DNA of 48,974 nucleotides from an uncultured Bacteroidota bacterium (GTDB lineage Bacteria; Bacteroidota; Bacteroidia; Flavobacteriales; Flavobacteriaceae): positions 1 to 48,974 of the forward strand of contig CAIOTL010000213.1 in the NCBI GenBank assembly GCA_903861155.1. Direction: 5' to 3'. Under the pieces are notes generated by a model, which saw only the letters and a program-made list of their open reading frames with translations, made no database searches and was not told the DNA's origin. Position 1 is the stretch's first letter; the number at the start of each line of letters is the position of its first letter. Of this stretch, positions 34,634 through 44,714 are shown one piece after another. The translations under genes were made by a program, and so were the position numbers.

Positions 34634-35491
34634 TTATAGAATTTCATCACAACGAAAAACTTCTTTTAAACGAATACCTACTTCCGTTTTTTCAACTGTT
34701 ATAATTTGATTATGCGCATCATGTTCTAAAAATAAATAGTAATTCTTCTCAGCAGCTGCATTAAGGAATTTTGCTTTTTCGGGCATTGTCAATAACGGTC
34801 TTGTGTCATAACCCATCACATACGGAATAGGAACGTGGCCGGCAGTCGCCAATAAATCAGCGCAAAAAACAATTGTTTTATCCTGATATTTGATATGTGG
34901 AATCATCATTTTTTCAGTATGGCCGTTTACAAATAAAATCCCGAAATCAAGTTCCGATTGCTCCGCAAAATCACCTTCTGGAAGCTTCAAAAAATTCAAT
35001 TGTCCACTTTCTTGAATTGGCAAAATGTTTTCCGAAAGAAACGATGCTTTTTCACGAGGATTGGGTTGTGTTGCCCATTCCCAGTGGTTTTCATTGGTCC
35101 AATATTTAGTATTTTTAAAAGCCACTTCATATCCTGTTTTGTCTTTATTCCATTGAACACTTCCACCGCAGTGGTCAAAATGGAAATGTGTCAAAAAAAC
35201 GTCAGTAATATCATCGCGATGAAAACCATATTTTGTCAATGATTTATCGATGGAATGCGTTCCCCATAGCGAATAATAGCCAAAAAACTTCTCGGATTGC
35301 TTGTTACCCATTCCGTTATCTATCAAAATCAGGCGATTCCCATCTTCGATTAGCAAACATCTGGCAGCAAGATCAATTAAGTTTTTTTCATCAGCAGGAT
35401 TGGTTTTGTTCCAAATTGTTTTTGGCACGACGCCAAACATTGCTCCGCCATCAAGCTTAAAATTGCCGGTTTCAATAGGATATAGTTTCAT
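34634..35491 (-). CDS. MBL fold metallohydrolase
   Basis: TDVFLTHFHFDHCGGSV motif, LLIDNGMG-like segment, VNGHTEKMMIPHI. Start at MKLYPIETG (35491). Confidence 0.92.
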   Translation of the reverse strand: MKLYPIETGNFKLDGGAMFGVVPKTIWNKTNPADEKNLIDLAARCLLIEDGNRLILIDNGMGNKQSEKFFGYYSLWGTHSIDKSLTKYGFHRDDITDVFLTHFHFDHCGGSVQWNKDKTGYEVAFKNTKYWTNENHWEWATQPNPREKASFLSENILPIQESGQLNFLKLPEGDFAEQSELDFGILFVNGHTEKMMIPHIKYQDKTIVFCADLLATAGHVPIPYVMGYDTRPLLTMPEKAKFLNAAAEKNYYLFLEHDAHNQIITVEKTEVGIRLKEVFRCDEIL

Positions 35492-35600
35492 AAATTGTTT
35501 TGTGTAATCAATAGAAAACAAAGTTAGCGAATACATCTACTTATTTAAGAAGCCAAATCAACTTTTTCTATCCAGTCATAGTTATAAAAATGTTATATGT

Positions 35601-35631
35601 TTGACAAAAAGGTGAAATTGTAATATCTTTG
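35601..35631 (+). promoter_or_regulatory. Bacteroidota-type promoter for the suf operon
   Basis: TTG (35601-35603), then 20 nt, then TATCTTTG (35624-35631), 30 nt upstream of the sufA ATG. Confidence 0.7.
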
Positions 35632-35636
35632 TGCTC

Positions 35637-35658
35637 TATTTAGACAAATTCTATATAA
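35637..35658. promoter_or_regulatory. palindromic operator-like motif TATTTAGACAAATTCTATATAA (sufA copy)
   Basis: Nearly identical to 42279-42300 upstream of sufS: TATTTAGA[C/A]AAATTCTA[T/A]ATAA; lies between the -7 element and the ATG. Confidence 0.65.
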
Positions 35659-35661
35659 GCT

Positions 35662-35991
35662 ATGATTAAAGTTTCTGATACTGCCAAAAAGAAAATCATC
35701 GATTTAATGAAAGACGATGGTTTTGATGCCGCAATTGACTACGTGAGAGTAGGTGTGAAAAGCGGCGGATGCTCTGGATTATCTTACGATTTGAAGTTTG
35801 ACAAAAACAAAGGTGAAGACGATAAAATTTTCGTGGATAACGAAATTACCATCGCCGTAGAGAAAAAATCGTTTCTCTATTTAGCTGGAACAATTCTCGA
35901 ATTCTCGGGAGGATTGAACGGAAAAGGGTTCGTTTTCAACAACCCGAATGCAAGCAGAACTTGTGGTTGCGGAGAATCATTCTCACTTTAG
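35662..35991 (+). CDS. sufA: A-type iron-sulfur cluster assembly protein (SufA/IscA/HesB)
   Basis: VRVGVKSGGCSGLSYDL and GFVFNNPNASRTCGCGESFSL (conserved Cys, CGCG). Confidence 0.93.
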   Translation: MIKVSDTAKKKIIDLMKDDGFDAAIDYVRVGVKSGGCSGLSYDLKFDKNKGEDDKIFVDNEITIAVEKKSFLYLAGTILEFSGGLNGKGFVFNNPNASRTCGCGESFSL

Positions 35992-36063
35992 TCTAATGTC
36001 AAAAGTTATCAAGTCGAAAGGCTCGTAATGACTTTAAAACTTTAGACTTTAAAACTTTAAGAC
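35991..36063. repeat. degenerate CTTTAAAA-type repeat in the sufA-sufB junction
   Basis: gtctaatgtcaaaagttatcaagtcgaaaggctcgtaatgactttaaaactttagactttaaaactttaagac; ends 6 nt before the sufB ATG. Confidence 0.6.
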
Positions 36064-36069
36064 AAAATT

Positions 36070-37518
36070 ATGTCAAAATACACGGAAGACCATTTACGAG
36101 TTGAACTCGAAAGCAAAGAATACGAGTACGGATTTTATACGGATATCGAATCGGATACTTTTCCTATAGGTTTGAACGAAGACATTGTTCGCGCCATTTC
36201 CCACAGAAAAGAAGAACCACAATGGATGACCGATTGGCGCATCGAGGCTTTTCGTGCTTGGGAATTGATGACCGAGCCGATATGGGCCAATGTGCATTAT
36301 CCCAAACCTGATTTTCAAGCCATTTCTTATTATTCTGCTCCAAAAGCTATTGATCCTAATAAATCATTAGACGATGTGGATCCTGAACTTTTAGAAATGT
36401 ATAAAAAGTTAGGAATATCTGTTGATGAGCAAAAAATGATGAATAATGTTGCTATGGATATTGTAGTTGATTCCGTTTCAGTAGCAACCACATTCAAGAA
36501 GACCCTGAACGAAAAAGGAATTATTTTCTGCTCTATTTCAGAAGCCATTCGAGAACATCCTGAATTGGTTCGTAAACATCTAGGCACCGTTGTTCCTCAA
36601 AAAGATAATTTTTATGCTGCATTAAATTCCGCTGTTTTCTCTGACGGAAGTTTCTGTTATATTCCAAAAGGCGTTCGTTGCCCAATGGAACTTTCGACTT
36701 ATTTCCGTATCAATCAAGCCGGAACCGGACAGTTTGAAAGAACATTACTCATTGCAGATGAAGGTAGTTACGTATCCTATCTTGAAGGTTGTACGGCACC
36801 GAGTCGTGACGAAAACCAATTGCACGCTGCGGTTGTGGAACTCATTGCAATGGATGACGCCGAAATTAAATATTCGACCGTTCAAAACTGGTATCCTGGA
36901 AACAAGGAAGGAAAAGGTGGCGTTTTCAATTTTGTGACCAAAAGAGGTTTGTGCAAGAAAAACGCAAAAATTTCTTGGACACAAGTCGAAACCGGTTCCG
37001 CTGTAACTTGGAAATATCCTTCTTGTATCTTGAAAGGCGACAATTCGGTTGGCGAATTTTATTCAATTGCCGTAACCAATAATTTCCAACAAGCTGATAC
37101 AGGAACCAAAATGATTCACCTTGGAAAAAACACAAAATCAACAATTATATCCAAAGGAATTTCTGCAGGAAAATCACATAATAGTTATAGAGGATTGGTA
37201 AAAGTTGGTCCAAATGCAGATAATGCAAGGAACTTTTCACAATGTGATTCGCTTTTAATGGGAAATAATTGTAGCGCCAATACATTTCCATACATCGAAA
37301 GCAAAAATTCGTCTGCCAAAATAGAACATGAAGCCACGACGAGTAAAATTGGCGAAGACCAAGTTTTCTATTGCAACCAACGTGGAATTCCAACCGAGAA
37401 AGCAATTGCCTTAATCGTAAACGGTTTCAGCAAAGATGTTTTAAACAAATTGCCAATGGAATTTGCTGTGGAAGCACAGAAATTATTGGAGATTAGTTTA
37501 GAAGGTTCGGTAGGATAA
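36070..37518 (+). CDS. sufB: Fe-S cluster assembly protein SufB
   Basis: [75 protein letters not shown]. Confidence 0.98.
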
Positions 37519-37524
37519 AAACTG

Positions 37525-37595
37525 GTTTAAAGTTTAAGGCTTAAAGTTGCGTAACCGGTATCAATTAGTAACTTTTAACAAAGAAAACTTTAAAC
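37525..37595. repeat. GTTTAAAG/CTTTAAAC palindromic repeat (sufB-downstream copy)
   Basis: Left arm gtttaaagtttaaggcttaaagtt (37525-37548), right arm aacttttaacaaagaaaactttaaac (37570-37595); ends 8 nt before the ATG at 37604. Confidence 0.75.
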
Positions 37596-37603
37596 TAAAT
37601 AAT

Positions 37604-37979
37604 ATGGCAACAATTACTCGATTTGAAGATTTAGAAATTTGGACTAGCCAAGGAAATTCATATCATAAGTATTGAAACCGAATTAAAAAATGATTTTAGA
37701 TTTAGAGATCAAATAAAAACATCATCTGGATCAGTAATGGACAACATTGCAGAAGGATTTGAAAGAAATGGAAATTTAGAATTTAGACAATTTTTGTCAA
37801 TTGCTAAAGGTTCGACTGGAGAATCCCGATCACAATTATACAGAGTTTTGGATTTCAATTATATCAATGACGAAATGTTCAATATTTTAAGAATAGATCA
37901 CGAGAATTTAAGCGGAAAAATAAACAATTTTATATCATATTTAAACAAGAAAGATTTTAAAGGCACTAAGTTTCAGTAA
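37604..37979 (+). pseudogene. frameshifted four-helix-bundle (S23/23S rRNA-IVP-like) protein gene
   Basis: Frame 1 from 37604: [23 protein letters not shown]. Frame shift near 37643-37645 restores [75 protein letters not shown]..., the characteristic family sequence. Total length 376 nt = 3n+1. Confidence 0.88.
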
Positions 37980-37986
37980 ACACGAG

Positions 37987-38010
37987 AACTTTAAACTTTA
38001 AACTTTAAAC
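37987..38010. repeat. CTTTAAA tandem half-arm upstream of sufC
   Basis: AACTTTAAACTTTAAACTTTAAAC, ends 12 nt before the sufC ATG at 38023. Confidence 0.8.
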
Positions 38011-38022
38011 AAAAGAAACAAA

Positions 38023-38775
38023 ATGTTAAGCATAAAAAATTTACACGCCTCCATTGGAGACAAAGAAATATTAAAAGGAATCAACCTTGAAGTGAAAGCG
38101 GGAGAAATCCATGCGATCATGGGACCAAACGGTGCCGGAAAAAGTACTCTTTCGGCGATTATTGCCGGAAACGAAAATTATGAAGTCACTGAAGGAGAAA
38201 TCTTTTTAGACGGCGAAGATATTTCGGAATTGGCGCCAGAAGAAAGAGCACACAAAGGTGTTTTCCTTTCGTTTCAATATCCTGTTGAAATCCCAGGAGT
38301 TTCGGTGACCAATTTCATTAGAACGGCAATCAACGAAACTCGCAAAGCCAACAAATTAGAAGAAATGCCAGCTAACGAAATGCTGAAAATTATTCGTGCC
38401 AAATCAGAATTATTGGAAATTGACCGTAAATTTTTGTCTCGTTCGTTAAACGAAGGTTTTTCGGGTGGAGAGAAAAAACGGAATGAGATTTTCCAAATGG
38501 CAATGCTCGAACCAAAACTCGCCATTCTTGACGAAACCGATTCTGGATTAGATATTGACGCACTTCGAATTGTTGCCAATGGTGTAAACAAATTGAAAAG
38601 CGACAAAAACGCTATCATCGTTATCACGCATTACCAAAGACTTTTAGATTACATCGTTCCCGATTTTGTTCACGTTTTGTACAACGGAAAAATCGTGAAA
38701 TCAGGAGGAAAAGAATTGGCTTACGAGCTCGAAGAAAAAGGATACGATTGGATTAAACAAGAACAAGAAGCATAA
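38023..38775 (+). CDS. sufC: Fe-S cluster assembly ATPase SufC
   Basis: Walker [11 protein letters not shown], signature [33 protein letters not shown]. Confidence 0.98.
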
Positions 38776-38780
38776 AATTT

Positions 38781-38844
38781 GTTTAAAGTCTAAAGTTTAA
38801 AGTTAGCACGATAACTTTGAACTTTTAAACCTTAAACTTTAAAC
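38781..38844. repeat. GTTTAAAG/CTTTAAAC palindromic repeat in the sufC-sufD junction
   Basis: GTTTAAAGTCTAAAGTTTAAAGTTA-gcacga-TAACTTTGAACTTTTAAACCTTAAACTTTAAAC; ends 10 nt before the sufD ATG. Confidence 0.88.
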
Positions 38845-38854
38845 AATAAAGAAT

Positions 38855-40171
38855 ATGGAATTAAAAGAAAAATTACTATCGTCTTTTATGGCTTTTGAAG
38901 AGCAAGTTGATGTTCATTCTGAACTTCATGATGTGAGAACTTCGGCTATAAAAAACTTTGAAAATAAGGGCTTCCCGACCAAAAAAGAGGAATCTTGGAA
39001 ATATACATCGCTAAATGCCATCTTGAAAAATGACTTTACCGTATTTCCAAAAGGCGAAAACTCCATCGAGTTTAAGGACGTAAAAAAATATTTCATCCAC
39101 GAAATAGACACCTACAAAGTGGTGTTTATCGACGGGGTTTTTAGTTCGCACTTGTCCTCAACAACTCACGAAGGACTCGATATTTGCCTGATGTCATCGG
39201 CATTGCACAAGCCAAAATACAAAATGGTTATCGATAACTATTTTAATAAAATTGCCAATAAAGACGAAAGTTTAACTTCGCTAAATACGGCTTTCGCCAA
39301 TGAAGGTGCGTATGTAAATATTCCGAAAAGTACGGTGGTTCGAAAACCAATCGAGATTATGTATTTCTCGACCGGAAACGAAGCGGCACTTTTGGTTCAG
39401 CCAAGGAATTTAATAATTGTTGGCGAAAATTCACATGTTCAAATCATCGAGAGAAACCAAAGTTTAAACGATAATCCGGTTTTGACAAATTCAGTTACGG
39501 AGATTTTTGCACAGAAACGTGCCATCGTTGATTATTATAAAATCCAAAATGACAACCTCGAGGCCAATCTAATAGACAATACCTATGTTTCTCAAAAACA
39601 AGAAACCAATGTATCGGTAAACACTTTTTGCTTTGGTGGAAACCTGACCAGAAACAACCTGAATTTTTATCATTTTGGCGAAAGAATTGTCAGCAACCTC
39701 AACGGAATTACGATTATTGGCGAAAAACAACACGTAGATCATTATACTTTGGTACAACATTCTACGCCAAATTGCGAAAGCCACCAAGATTATAAAGGAA
39801 TTTATTCAGACCGTTCGACAGGTGTTTTCAATGGAAAGATTTTCGTCGAAAAAGAAGCTCAAAAAACGAACGCTTTCCAAAAAAGTAACAACATTTTGCT
39901 TGGCGATAAATCTACGATAAATGCAAAACCACAATTAGAGATTTTTGCCGATGACGTAAAATGTTCTCACGGTTGTACCGTTGGACAATTGGACGAGACC
40001 GCCATGTTCTATATGCAACAACGCGGAATTCCTAAGAAAGAAGCCAAAGCTTTATTGATGTACGCTTTCTCAAATGCGCTTATCGAAAGCATCAAAATCC
40101 CGGAATTGAAACAACGAATCACCAAGATTATCGCTATGAAATTGGGAGTGAAAATTGGATTTGATTTGTAG
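38855..40171 (+). CDS. sufD: Fe-S cluster assembly protein SufD
   Basis: KEESWKYTSLNAIL, HQDYKGIYSDRSTGVFNGKIFVEKEAQKTNAFQKSNNILL, DDVKCSHGCTVGQLDETAMFYMQQRGI. Confidence 0.97.
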   Translation: MELKEKLLSSFMAFEEQVDVHSELHDVRTSAIKNFENKGFPTKKEESWKYTSLNAILKNDFTVFPKGENSIEFKDVKKYFIHEIDTYKVVFIDGVFSSHLSSTTHEGLDICLMSSALHKPKYKMVIDNYFNKIANKDESLTSLNTAFANEGAYVNIPKSTVVRKPIEIMYFSTGNEAALLVQPRNLIIVGENSHVQIIERNQSLNDNPVLTNSVTEIFAQKRAIVDYYKIQNDNLEANLIDNTYVSQKQETNVSVNTFCFGGNLTRNNLNFYHFGERIVSNLNGITIIGEKQHVDHYTLVQHSTPNCESHQDYKGIYSDRSTGVFNGKIFVEKEAQKTNAFQKSNNILLGDKSTINAKPQLEIFADDVKCSHGCTVGQLDETAMFYMQQRGIPKKEAKALLMYAFSNALIESIKIPELKQRITKIIAMKLGVKIGFDL

Positions 40172-42244: not shown

Positions 42245-42278
42245 TTGCTGAAAAGATGGTTCAAATTTATTACTTTTG
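42245..42278 (+). promoter_or_regulatory. putative promoter for sufS
   Basis: TTG (42245-42247), then 23 nt, then TACTTTTG (42271-42278). Confidence 0.5.
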
Positions 42279-42300
42279 TATTTAGAAAAATTCTAAATAA
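42279..42300. promoter_or_regulatory. palindromic operator-like motif TATTTAGAAAAATTCTAAATAA (sufS copy)
   Basis: 7-3-7 inverted repeat TTTAGAA-aaa-TTCTAAA immediately 3' of the -7 element; 20/22 identical to 35637-35658. Confidence 0.7.
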
Positions 42301-42304
42301 CAAA

Positions 42305-43519
42305 ATGTTAGACATTCAAAAAATTAGAGCCGATTTCCCCATACTTTCTCGAAATATAAACGGAAAACCATTAGTTTATTTTGACAACGGAGCCACTTCG
42401 CAAAAACCACAAATTGTGATTGATGCGATTGCTCAATATTATCAGGAAATAAATGCTAATATTCATCGAGGCGTTCATACTTTGAGCCAATTGGCAACCG
42501 ATGCGTATGAAGTATCTCGTGGCAAAATTCAAAGCCACATTAATGCAAAATTCGCTCACGAAGTGATTTTTACTTCGGGAACAACGCACGGAATTAATGC
42601 TGTTGCCAATGGTTTTGCTTCGCTGCTACAATCCGGTGATGAAGTTCTAGTTTCAGCAATGGAACATCACAGCAATATTGTGCCTTGGCAAATGCTATGC
42701 GAAAAAACCGGAGCCACTTTACGAGTGATTCCAATGAATGAAAAAGGCGAATTAATCATGTCCGACTACGATAAATTGCTTTCGGATAAAACTAAAATCG
42801 TAACTGTAAATCATATTTCGAATGCTTTGGGAACGATCAATCCTATTAAATATATGATTGACAAAGCGCATGCATTTGGCGCAGCGATTTTGATTGACGG
42901 AGCGCAAGCCGTTCCTCATCTAAAACCGGATGTTCAAAAATTAGATTGTGATTTTTATGTTTTTTCAGGTCACAAAATGTGTGGTCCTACGGGAACAGGA
43001 ATTTTATATGGAAAAGAAGCTTGGCTTAACAAATTACCTCCCTATCAAGGCGGTGGCGAAATGATAAAAGAAGTCACTTTCGAGAAAACAACGTATGCAG
43101 ATTTACCACATAAATTCGAAGCTGGAACCCCAAATATAGCTGGCGGAATTGTGTTAGGAACAGCCGTAGATTACATGAATTCCATTGGTTTTGACGACAT
43201 TCAAAAACAGGAATTAGAGTTAGCCGAATACGGAACAAAACGATTATTAGAAATTGAAGGTTTACGAATTTTTGGCACAGCCGCAGCAAAAACATCGGTG
43301 ATTTCGTTTAATATCGAAGGAATTCATCCTTATGATATTGGCACGATTATAGACAAACTAGGAATAGCCGTTAGAACCGGTCATCATTGCGCCCAACCGG
43401 TTATGGAGTTTTTCAATATTCCGGGAACGATTAGAGCTTCATTTGCTTTTTATAATACCAAAGAAGAAATTGACGTTATGGTTGAAGCGGTGAAAAAAGC
43501 GCAACTCATGTTATCCTAA
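42305..43519 (+). CDS. sufS: cysteine desulfurase SufS
   Basis: YFDNGATSQKPQ, NIHRGVHTLSQLAT, SAMEHHSNIVPWQ, FSGHKMCGPTGTGILYGKE (PLP Lys), RTGHHCAQPVM (catalytic Cys). ATG 42305 rather than the track start 42200. Confidence 0.98.
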   Translation: MLDIQKIRADFPILSRNINGKPLVYFDNGATSQKPQIVIDAIAQYYQEINANIHRGVHTLSQLATDAYEVSRGKIQSHINAKFAHEVIFTSGTTHGINAVANGFASLLQSGDEVLVSAMEHHSNIVPWQMLCEKTGATLRVIPMNEKGELIMSDYDKLLSDKTKIVTVNHISNALGTINPIKYMIDKAHAFGAAILIDGAQAVPHLKPDVQKLDCDFYVFSGHKMCGPTGTGILYGKEAWLNKLPPYQGGGEMIKEVTFEKTTYADLPHKFEAGTPNIAGGIVLGTAVDYMNSIGFDDIQKQELELAEYGTKRLLEIEGLRIFGTAAAKTSVISFNIEGIHPYDIGTIIDKLGIAVRTGHHCAQPVMEFFNIPGTIRASFAFYNTKEEIDVMVEAVKKAQLMLS

Positions 43520-43964: not shown

Positions 43965-44384
43965 ATGAAGATTAAAGAAATACAAGAAGAAATAATAGAT
44001 GAGTTTTCGATGTTTGACGATTGGATGCAACGTTATGAATACATTATTGATTTGGGTAAAAACTTGCCCTTAATCCAAGAAGAATTCAAAACCGATGACA
44101 ATCTCATCAAAGGATGTCAGTCGAAAGTCTGGTTACATGGTGAACAAAACGGAGACAAAATTGTTTTCACCGCAGATAGCGACGCGATTTTGACCAAAGG
44201 AATTATAGCGATATTGATTCGGGTTTTTTCGAACCAAACCGCTATAGATATCTTAAATGCCGGCATGGATTTTATTGACGAAATTGGTTTAAAAGAACAT
44301 TTATCTCCAACACGCGCCAACGGATTGGTGTCGATGATAAAAAATATAAAAATGTACGCATTGGCTTTCGATGCAAAAAAATAA
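43965..44384 (+). CDS. sufE: SufE family sulfur acceptor protein
   Basis: IIDLGKNLPLIQEEFKTDDNLIKGCQSKVWL with the conserved GCQS cysteine. Confidence 0.96.
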   Translation: MKIKEIQEEIIDEFSMFDDWMQRYEYIIDLGKNLPLIQEEFKTDDNLIKGCQSKVWLHGEQNGDKIVFTADSDAILTKGIIAILIRVFSNQTAIDILNAGMDFIDEIGLKEHLSPTRANGLVSMIKNIKMYALAFDAKK

Positions 44385-44390
44385 AAAAAT

Positions 44391-44714
44391 ATGGAACAAG
44401 TAATAGACACCAACTTATTAGGAATACAAATCGTAGAAAAACTAAAGACCATTTATGATCCTGAAATTCCTGTAGATATTTATGAGCTAGGATTAATTTA
44501 TGACGTAATGGTAAGTACCGATTATGAAGTAAAAATTCTGATGACCCTTACTTCACCTAACTGTCCCGTTGCGGAAAGTTTACCTCGGGAAGTGGAAGAA
44601 AAAGTAAAATCTATTGAGCATATTAAAGCTGCCGAGGTAGAAATCACTTTCGATCCTCCTTGGAGCAAAGATTTAATGAGCGAAGAAGCAAAATTAGAAT
44701 TGGGAATGCTTTAA
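44391..44714 (+). CDS. DUF59/MIP18-type Fe-S assembly protein (SufT-like)
   Basis: IYDPEIPVDIYELGLIYDVMV, TLTSPNCPVAESLPREVEEKV, VEITFDPPWSKDLMSEEAKLELGML. Confidence 0.95.
   Translation: MEQVIDTNLLGIQIVEKLKTIYDPEIPVDIYELGLIYDVMVSTDYEVKILMTLTSPNCPVAESLPREVEEKVKSIEHIKAAEVEITFDPPWSKDLMSEEAKLELGML

Follow-up and report, generated by a model that had tools for sequence, protein, structure and literature searches.

Two suf transcription units in the window

The window, i.e., the whole 48,974-nt stretch of DNA that was analysed, is one contig of Flavobacterium genome G000 (2.87 Mb, 95.7% complete). SUF is presumably the sole Fe-S system of this host, as we assume from general knowledge of Bacteroidota. 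The suf genes of the window lie on the plus strand in two units, each with its own promoter. The sufA-sufB-sufC-sufD unit extends from 35662 to 40171 and contains sufA, encoding a 109-aa A-type Fe-S carrier (35662..35991, TIGR00049), sufB (36070..37518, NF008773/TIGR01980), sufC (38023..38775, TIGR01978) and sufD (38855..40171, TIGR01981). The second unit starts at 42305 and encodes the cysteine desulfurase SufS (42305..43519, TIGR01979), SufE (43965..44384, best match NF006792 (SufE), below the cut-off) and a SUF-associated assembly protein (44391..44714, TIGR02945 over the cut-off).

Other genes accompany the sufABCD unit. Divergent from sufA, on the minus strand at 34634-35536, is a gene for a metallo-beta-lactamase-fold lactonase whose best match, below the cut-off, is the YtnP quorum-quenching family; in Muricauda olearia, the AHL lactonase gene momL sits within the suf cluster (PMC5484670). 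The interval between sufB and sufC contains a gene for a four-helix protein of the 23S rRNA-intervening-sequence type (37600-37979, PF05635), the N-terminal part of which appears frameshifted. A four-helix-bundle gene is also listed in Riemerella, between the sufA and sufB locus tags.

A palindrome shared by the sufA and sufS promoters

Both units are preceded by a -7 element of the TAnnTTTG consensus (PMC9723704), TATCTTTG at 35624..35631 (+) for sufA and TACTTTTG at 42271..42278 (+) for sufS. A candidate -33 element, TTTGAC, was picked out by eye at 35600..35605 (+) in the sufA promoter. Downstream of each -7 element lies a candidate operator, written here without a strand: TATTTAGACAAATTCTATATA at 35637..35657, before the sufA ATG at 35662, and TATTTAGAAAAATTCTAAATA at 42279..42299, before the sufS ATG at 42305. 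The first-pass annotation of this DNA had proposed a palindrome 3' of the -7 element at both suf promoters, with 20/22 identity between the two copies, and we found both sequences at these loci with exactly that identity. It had described the element as an imperfect 7-3-7 inverted repeat. The repeat is real, but the description understates the sufS copy, which is a perfect 9-3-9 palindrome; at sufA, 16/18 arm positions and 7/9 arm pairs match, and the half-sites TTTAGA and TCTATA are spaced by 5 bp. The two copies had further been placed in the same position, which is correct as a similarity but not as an identity, the gap between the -7 element and the palindrome being 5 bp at sufA and 0 bp at sufS. 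Similar degenerate stretches, TTTAAAGTTTAAAG and AACTTTAAACTTTAAAC, occur in several of the gaps of the sufABCD unit (36000-36070, 37519-37600, 37980-38022 and 38776-38855).

Because the TAnnTTTG box of Flavobacterium occupies positions -12 to -5 (PMC9723704), transcription is predicted to start near 35636 for sufA and near 42283 for sufS. Relative to the starts predicted by this rule, the sufS palindrome covers approximately -4 to +17, with the predicted start inside it, and the sufA site approximately +2 to +22. With starts placed in this way, both sites overlap the promoter, as is required of an element that blocks RNA polymerase.

A second conserved element, CTATCCAGTCATAGTTATAAAAATGTTAT, is located upstream of the sufA promoter at 35568..35596 (no strand assigned) and is kept in the sufA upstream regions L021-L098 and L244-L246. 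Its consensus is CTATnnnnnnATwrGTTATAAAAATGTTAT, in which GTTAT forms a direct repeat at an 11-bp period. This element may be an activator site that adds an input at sufA. Possibly it is bound by an OxyR-type regulator, which would fit the induction by H2O2 considered below.

Conservation of the palindrome in place

Scans of the window and of the genome with the motif, the latter among the checks suggested in the first-pass annotation, gave counts comparable to those of shuffles or of a reversed control. When up to two mismatches were allowed, the loose motif matched 14 times in the window against 10.6 expected, and 20 of 100 shuffles reached 14; a 16-position motif with up to three mismatches was found at 121 places genome-wide, compared with 131 for the reversed control. 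The two-mismatch sites in G000 were mostly without a clear iron gene downstream. Since these loose-motif counts show no excess, support was sought in conservation in place. For the strict form TTTAGAANNNTTCTAAA, the 2.87-Mb genome has a single match, the sufS site, and no match to the reversed control; in each Flavobacterium genome, sufS is almost the only place with the perfect palindrome. This near-uniqueness could mark the site that Fur binds most tightly in the genome or that of a dedicated regulator.

Comparison of the suf upstream regions of relatives, where a lack of conservation would have refuted the first-pass annotation by its own criterion, showed that the motif is conserved. Among 109 Flavobacterium relatives, the sufS upstream region carries all 18/18 arm positions in 63 and at least 16 in 84. 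When 89 unique sufS upstream regions were aligned on the -7 element, the arms contained 1.24 bits per position, compared with 0.40 in the 52 bases upstream and 0.43 in the spacer, which varies (TTT, AAA, CTT, ATT) while the arms are kept. Several species have a longer sufS leader, in some of which the ATG is ~90 bp away, and the palindrome stays at the -7 element, indicating that it is part of the promoter rather than of the ribosome-binding region. In L040, L052, L072, L115, L116 and L129, sufS comes immediately after sufD, and there is neither a sufS promoter nor a palindrome.

The sufA copy is also conserved in the genus, yet it is mostly asymmetric: most congeners have ATTTAGACAAAATCAAWATA, in which the left half is kept and the right half is degraded, and the palindromic form is restricted to this species and its near neighbours L021 and L036. 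When sufA upstream regions were compared, the site was not seen in one group of larger genomes, those similar to F. saccharophilum, F. denitrificans and F. hibernum. Species related to F. johnsoniae appear to have lost it. We thus rejected the notion of one and the same sufA palindrome in the whole genus, as the site is mostly asymmetric and was not seen in that larger-genome group. Outside the genus, sufA palindromes recur in the same place, including TATTTAGAACGAATCTATATT (L367), AATTTTGACTAATTCTAAATA (L259), TATTTAGATTAATTATAAATA (L365), TAATTAGAACGATTCTAAATA (L275), TAAATAGAACCATTCTAAATA (L356) and others. Of 34 non-genus sufA upstream regions, 25 scored above 95% of their own dinucleotide shuffles (P < 0.05 each); the mean best score was 14.1 versus 10.9 for the shuffles, and the summed Z over the 34 regions was 19.7, a value computed as if related sequences were independent. 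Family f5 has the site in front of sufS (L249, L253-L255). On this pattern of conservation, the palindrome is a putative suf operator of the whole order, with lineages that carry it at sufA, at sufS or at both.

The same comparisons bear on whether the element is instead a promoter or 5'-leader feature, such as an initially transcribed sequence, a leader hairpin or a translation-start context. In almost every genome it does sit downstream of the -7 element and before the start codon, and the Flavobacterium sufA version is conserved though asymmetric, both of which would suit a leader. However, the predicted leaders fold poorly (sufS, -3.5 kcal/mol, z -1.4, with a fold other than the palindrome hairpin; sufA, -2.1, z +1.0), lending no support to a leader RNA structure, which was set aside. 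The predicted start inside the sufS palindrome, the long-leader genomes that hold the palindrome at the -7 element ~90 bp from the ATG, the similar dyad on the upstream side of the sufS -7 element in L266 and L268, and the exchange of the spacer (TTT, AAA, CTT) between constant arms all count against it as well, making a leader feature highly improbable.

Candidate regulators of the palindrome

We profiled the FUR, Rrf2 and DtxR families in 44 genomes across the order, which were chosen together with the suf loci and are partly drafts. FUR is present in 44/44 of these genomes and in 61/61 genomes of the genus. Rrf2 is absent or below the Pfam cut-off in 16/44, and seven genomes without Rrf2 over the cut-off (G061, G087, G104, G122, G144, G073 and G084) keep the sufA site at 13-17 of 18 arm positions. 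Three of them, G061, G073 and G144, consist of one or two contigs, are 96-99% complete and carry the site at 14-17/18; the genomes of family f8 without Rrf2 over the cut-off have sufA sites of 12 to 15 of 18. DtxR is found in 42/44 genomes and is missing from G122 and G084, 94-97% complete drafts that have neither a DtxR match nor Rrf2 over the cut-off and that both keep 16/18 at sufA.

These profiles speak to the possibility of an Rrf2/IscR-type reader, a kind of sensor called plausible in the first-pass annotation, which would sense Fe-S clusters and, at the palindrome, repress suf while clusters are abundant. In Proteobacteria, suf is as a rule under IscR control. G000 encodes three Rrf2 proteins, one of which, near nrdD/nrdG-like genes, has by eye the C-x7-C-x5-C pattern typical of cluster-binding members, and a suf response that remains without fur in Riemerella would also accord with a reader of this type. 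However, none of the three rrf2 loci of G000 has the palindrome or lies near the suf genes, within the limits set by contig ends at L018, and the genomes that keep sufA sites without Rrf2 over the cut-off, several of which reach 96-99% completeness with just one or two contigs, largely refute the proposal for the order as a whole. An Rrf2-type reader is thus very unlikely.

A DtxR/MntR-type iron or manganese repressor with a C-terminal FeoA domain deserves attention as its family is nearly as widespread as FUR (42/44) and as the promoters of dtxR genes have a box built on a matching half-site, TTTAG[AG]...TCTAAA. The half-site TTTAGA/TCTAAA is common to this box and to the suf sites of the same genomes. 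The spacing separates the two: the box in front of dtxR itself, TTTAG[AG]CAAATCTAAA, has a 4-bp spacing in 17/25 pairs from several families (L336-L355) and lies mostly upstream of the -7 element, whereas the suf half-sites are spaced by 5 bp almost without exception, as in 92 sufS pairs in the genus and 17/21 sufA pairs across the order. This mismatch in spacing, together with the 16/18 suf palindromes of G122 and G084, led us to set DtxR aside as a quite improbable reader. Both the spacing and the phylogenetic profile point to FUR as the probable reader of the palindrome, by elimination among the three candidate families.

Match to the Riemerella Fur box

The first-pass annotation did not recognise the palindrome as a described Bacteroidota site. 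The Fur box of Riemerella anatipestifer, ATTTAGAATTATTCTAAAT, which is supported by EMSA on four promoters (PMC5609570) and, from a second group, again at rhuB (PMC10986502), contradicts this: it matches the sufS core at 17/19 bases and the sufA core at 15/19, with the same 5-bp spacing between half-sites. The match, together with the presence of FUR in every genome profiled, supports the suggestion of a Fur-family sensor in that annotation.

G000 has a single FUR protein, encoded between a relA/spoT gene and purA; F. psychrophilum also has one Fur-family protein, the gene of which lies upstream of purA (PMC9331221). The G000 Fur shares 53-55% identity with its counterparts in family f5, probably the Riemerella/Chryseobacterium family, and 60-79% with those in other families. 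The recognition-helix regions are near-identical (VSRATLYNTIE and VSKATIYNTIE). We looked for autoregulation via the palindrome and saw no such palindrome in front of the fur gene. The Flavobacteriales Fur proteins (L017, L278-L306, L370-L373) lack the CxxC pair that usually forms the structural zinc site (DHIIMTDTGEVIEF). In this they differ from the FUR paralogues that accompany them in genomes other than G000, which look Zur-like by their Cys pairs.

Sites at other iron-linked genes

Perfect or near-perfect TTTAGAA-N3-TTCTAAA was found between hemA and an AraC regulator-hemH pair in six Flavobacterium relatives (L164, L166, L168, L169, L170 and L176), which suggests that heme synthesis is under iron control in Flavobacterium. 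The dps genes of G000 and G045 are preceded by a Fur-box core, and tandem weaker sites precede a PepSY-like operon (Pfam) in G000. Sites with a score of at least 14 occur before 3/8 PepSY_TM genes versus 16/404 control genes (P = 0.004), in a small sample. The first-pass annotation had read the shared palindrome as pointing to a dedicated repressor of Fe-S biogenesis. A shared operator over the start sites, probably bound by a repressor, is consistent with our data, but the sites at hemA/AraC-hemH and dps argue against its being dedicated to that pathway.

Boxes occur at dps, hemA/hemH and PepSY genes, but in small samples, and hardly any box other than that at sufS has the perfect form. Such a concentration of the perfect form at sufS counts against a broad Fur regulon, unless the other sites are degenerate. 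A regulator dedicated to suf, other than Fur, Rrf2 and DtxR, would explain both the rarity of the perfect form away from sufS and the Fur-independent iron response of suf in Riemerella; we regard such a regulator as unlikely.

Predicted control of suf by iron

Taken together, we propose, with a probability of roughly 0.78, that the palindrome is a Fur operator through which suf would be repressed when iron is sufficient; binding, repression and signal are inferred here. With enough iron in the cell, the one FUR-family protein of G000 would carry Fe(II) and, as a dimer, bind TTTAGAA-N3-TTCTAAA across the transcription start. Bound Fur would shut out RNA polymerase, strongly at the sufS unit and more weakly at sufABCD. 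A drop in iron, or peroxide that strips or oxidises the Fur-bound iron, would make Fur leave and both suf units would be derepressed.

Published expression data agree with this mechanism in part. In the flavobacterium M. olearia, sufA and sufD are up about twofold on iron chelation (PMC5484670), and in F. psychrophilum, H2O2 induces Fe-S assembly genes (PMC9723704), both as expected of the proposed Fur switch. In R. anatipestifer YM, sufA, sufB, sufD, dps and ferritin are up under iron restriction in the wild type and the fur mutant alike, and no derepression upon fur loss is tabulated for any of these genes (PMC5609570 Table 3). As the suf response to iron persists in the fur mutant, the case for Fur control is weaker in that species. 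However, hmuR, an accepted Fur target, is also still iron-responsive in the mutant (PMC5609570 Table 4), and the Riemerella data therefore do not separate the possibilities cleanly. They leave room for a second iron input to suf.

Discussion

How Fe-S assembly is regulated is well known for Proteobacteria, Firmicutes, cyanobacteria and Actinobacteria. For Bacteroidota, we found no paper in the open-access literature that defines a suf regulator or operator. The operator conserved across Flavobacteriales offers a testable answer for suf, namely Fur rather than an IscR-type sensor. It also bears on the reading of regulons: those of Fur and DtxR are easily confused in AT-rich genomes because their half-sites are alike, and the spacing, 5 bp in the Fur box and 4 bp in the DtxR box, provides a rule that separates the look-alikes. 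Two published attempts to delete fur in Flavobacterium, in two species, both failed (one in PMC9331221), and a sequence-based handle on Fur targets is therefore useful.

Among known systems, the R. anatipestifer Fur box is like the suf sites in its half-sites and 5-bp spacing, and it comes from the same order and is read by an orthologous Fur. It differs in location, having been described at heme and siderophore receptor genes, and in its central triplet, which is TTA instead of the AAA, TTT or CTT of the suf sites. The Bacillus subtilis PerR box, TTATAATNATTATAA, governs a regulon that includes dps/mrgA and hem genes. It resembles the suf sites in its 15-mer inverted-repeat architecture and in the target classes dps, hemA and hemH, but it has G/C at one pair of arm positions, unlike the suf sites; for the single Fur of G000, direct sensing of peroxide is not known.

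Fur repression of the Escherichia coli sufABCDSE operon is established knowledge, reportedly from work by Outten et al. in 2004 (cited in PMC5609570). That operon resembles the locus described here in having a Fur operator at the suf promoter, with derepression expected on iron starvation. Its box sequence differs from the suf sites here, however, and E. coli has one suf operon, which takes input from IscR, OxyR and IHF, next to a separate ISC system, whereas two units with a site each are found in the window. Fur control of suf is thus known from E. coli and the box from Riemerella, while an operator conserved at suf across Flavobacteriales was not found described in the open-access literature; the palindrome is most likely an ordinary Fur switch at a previously unreported place.
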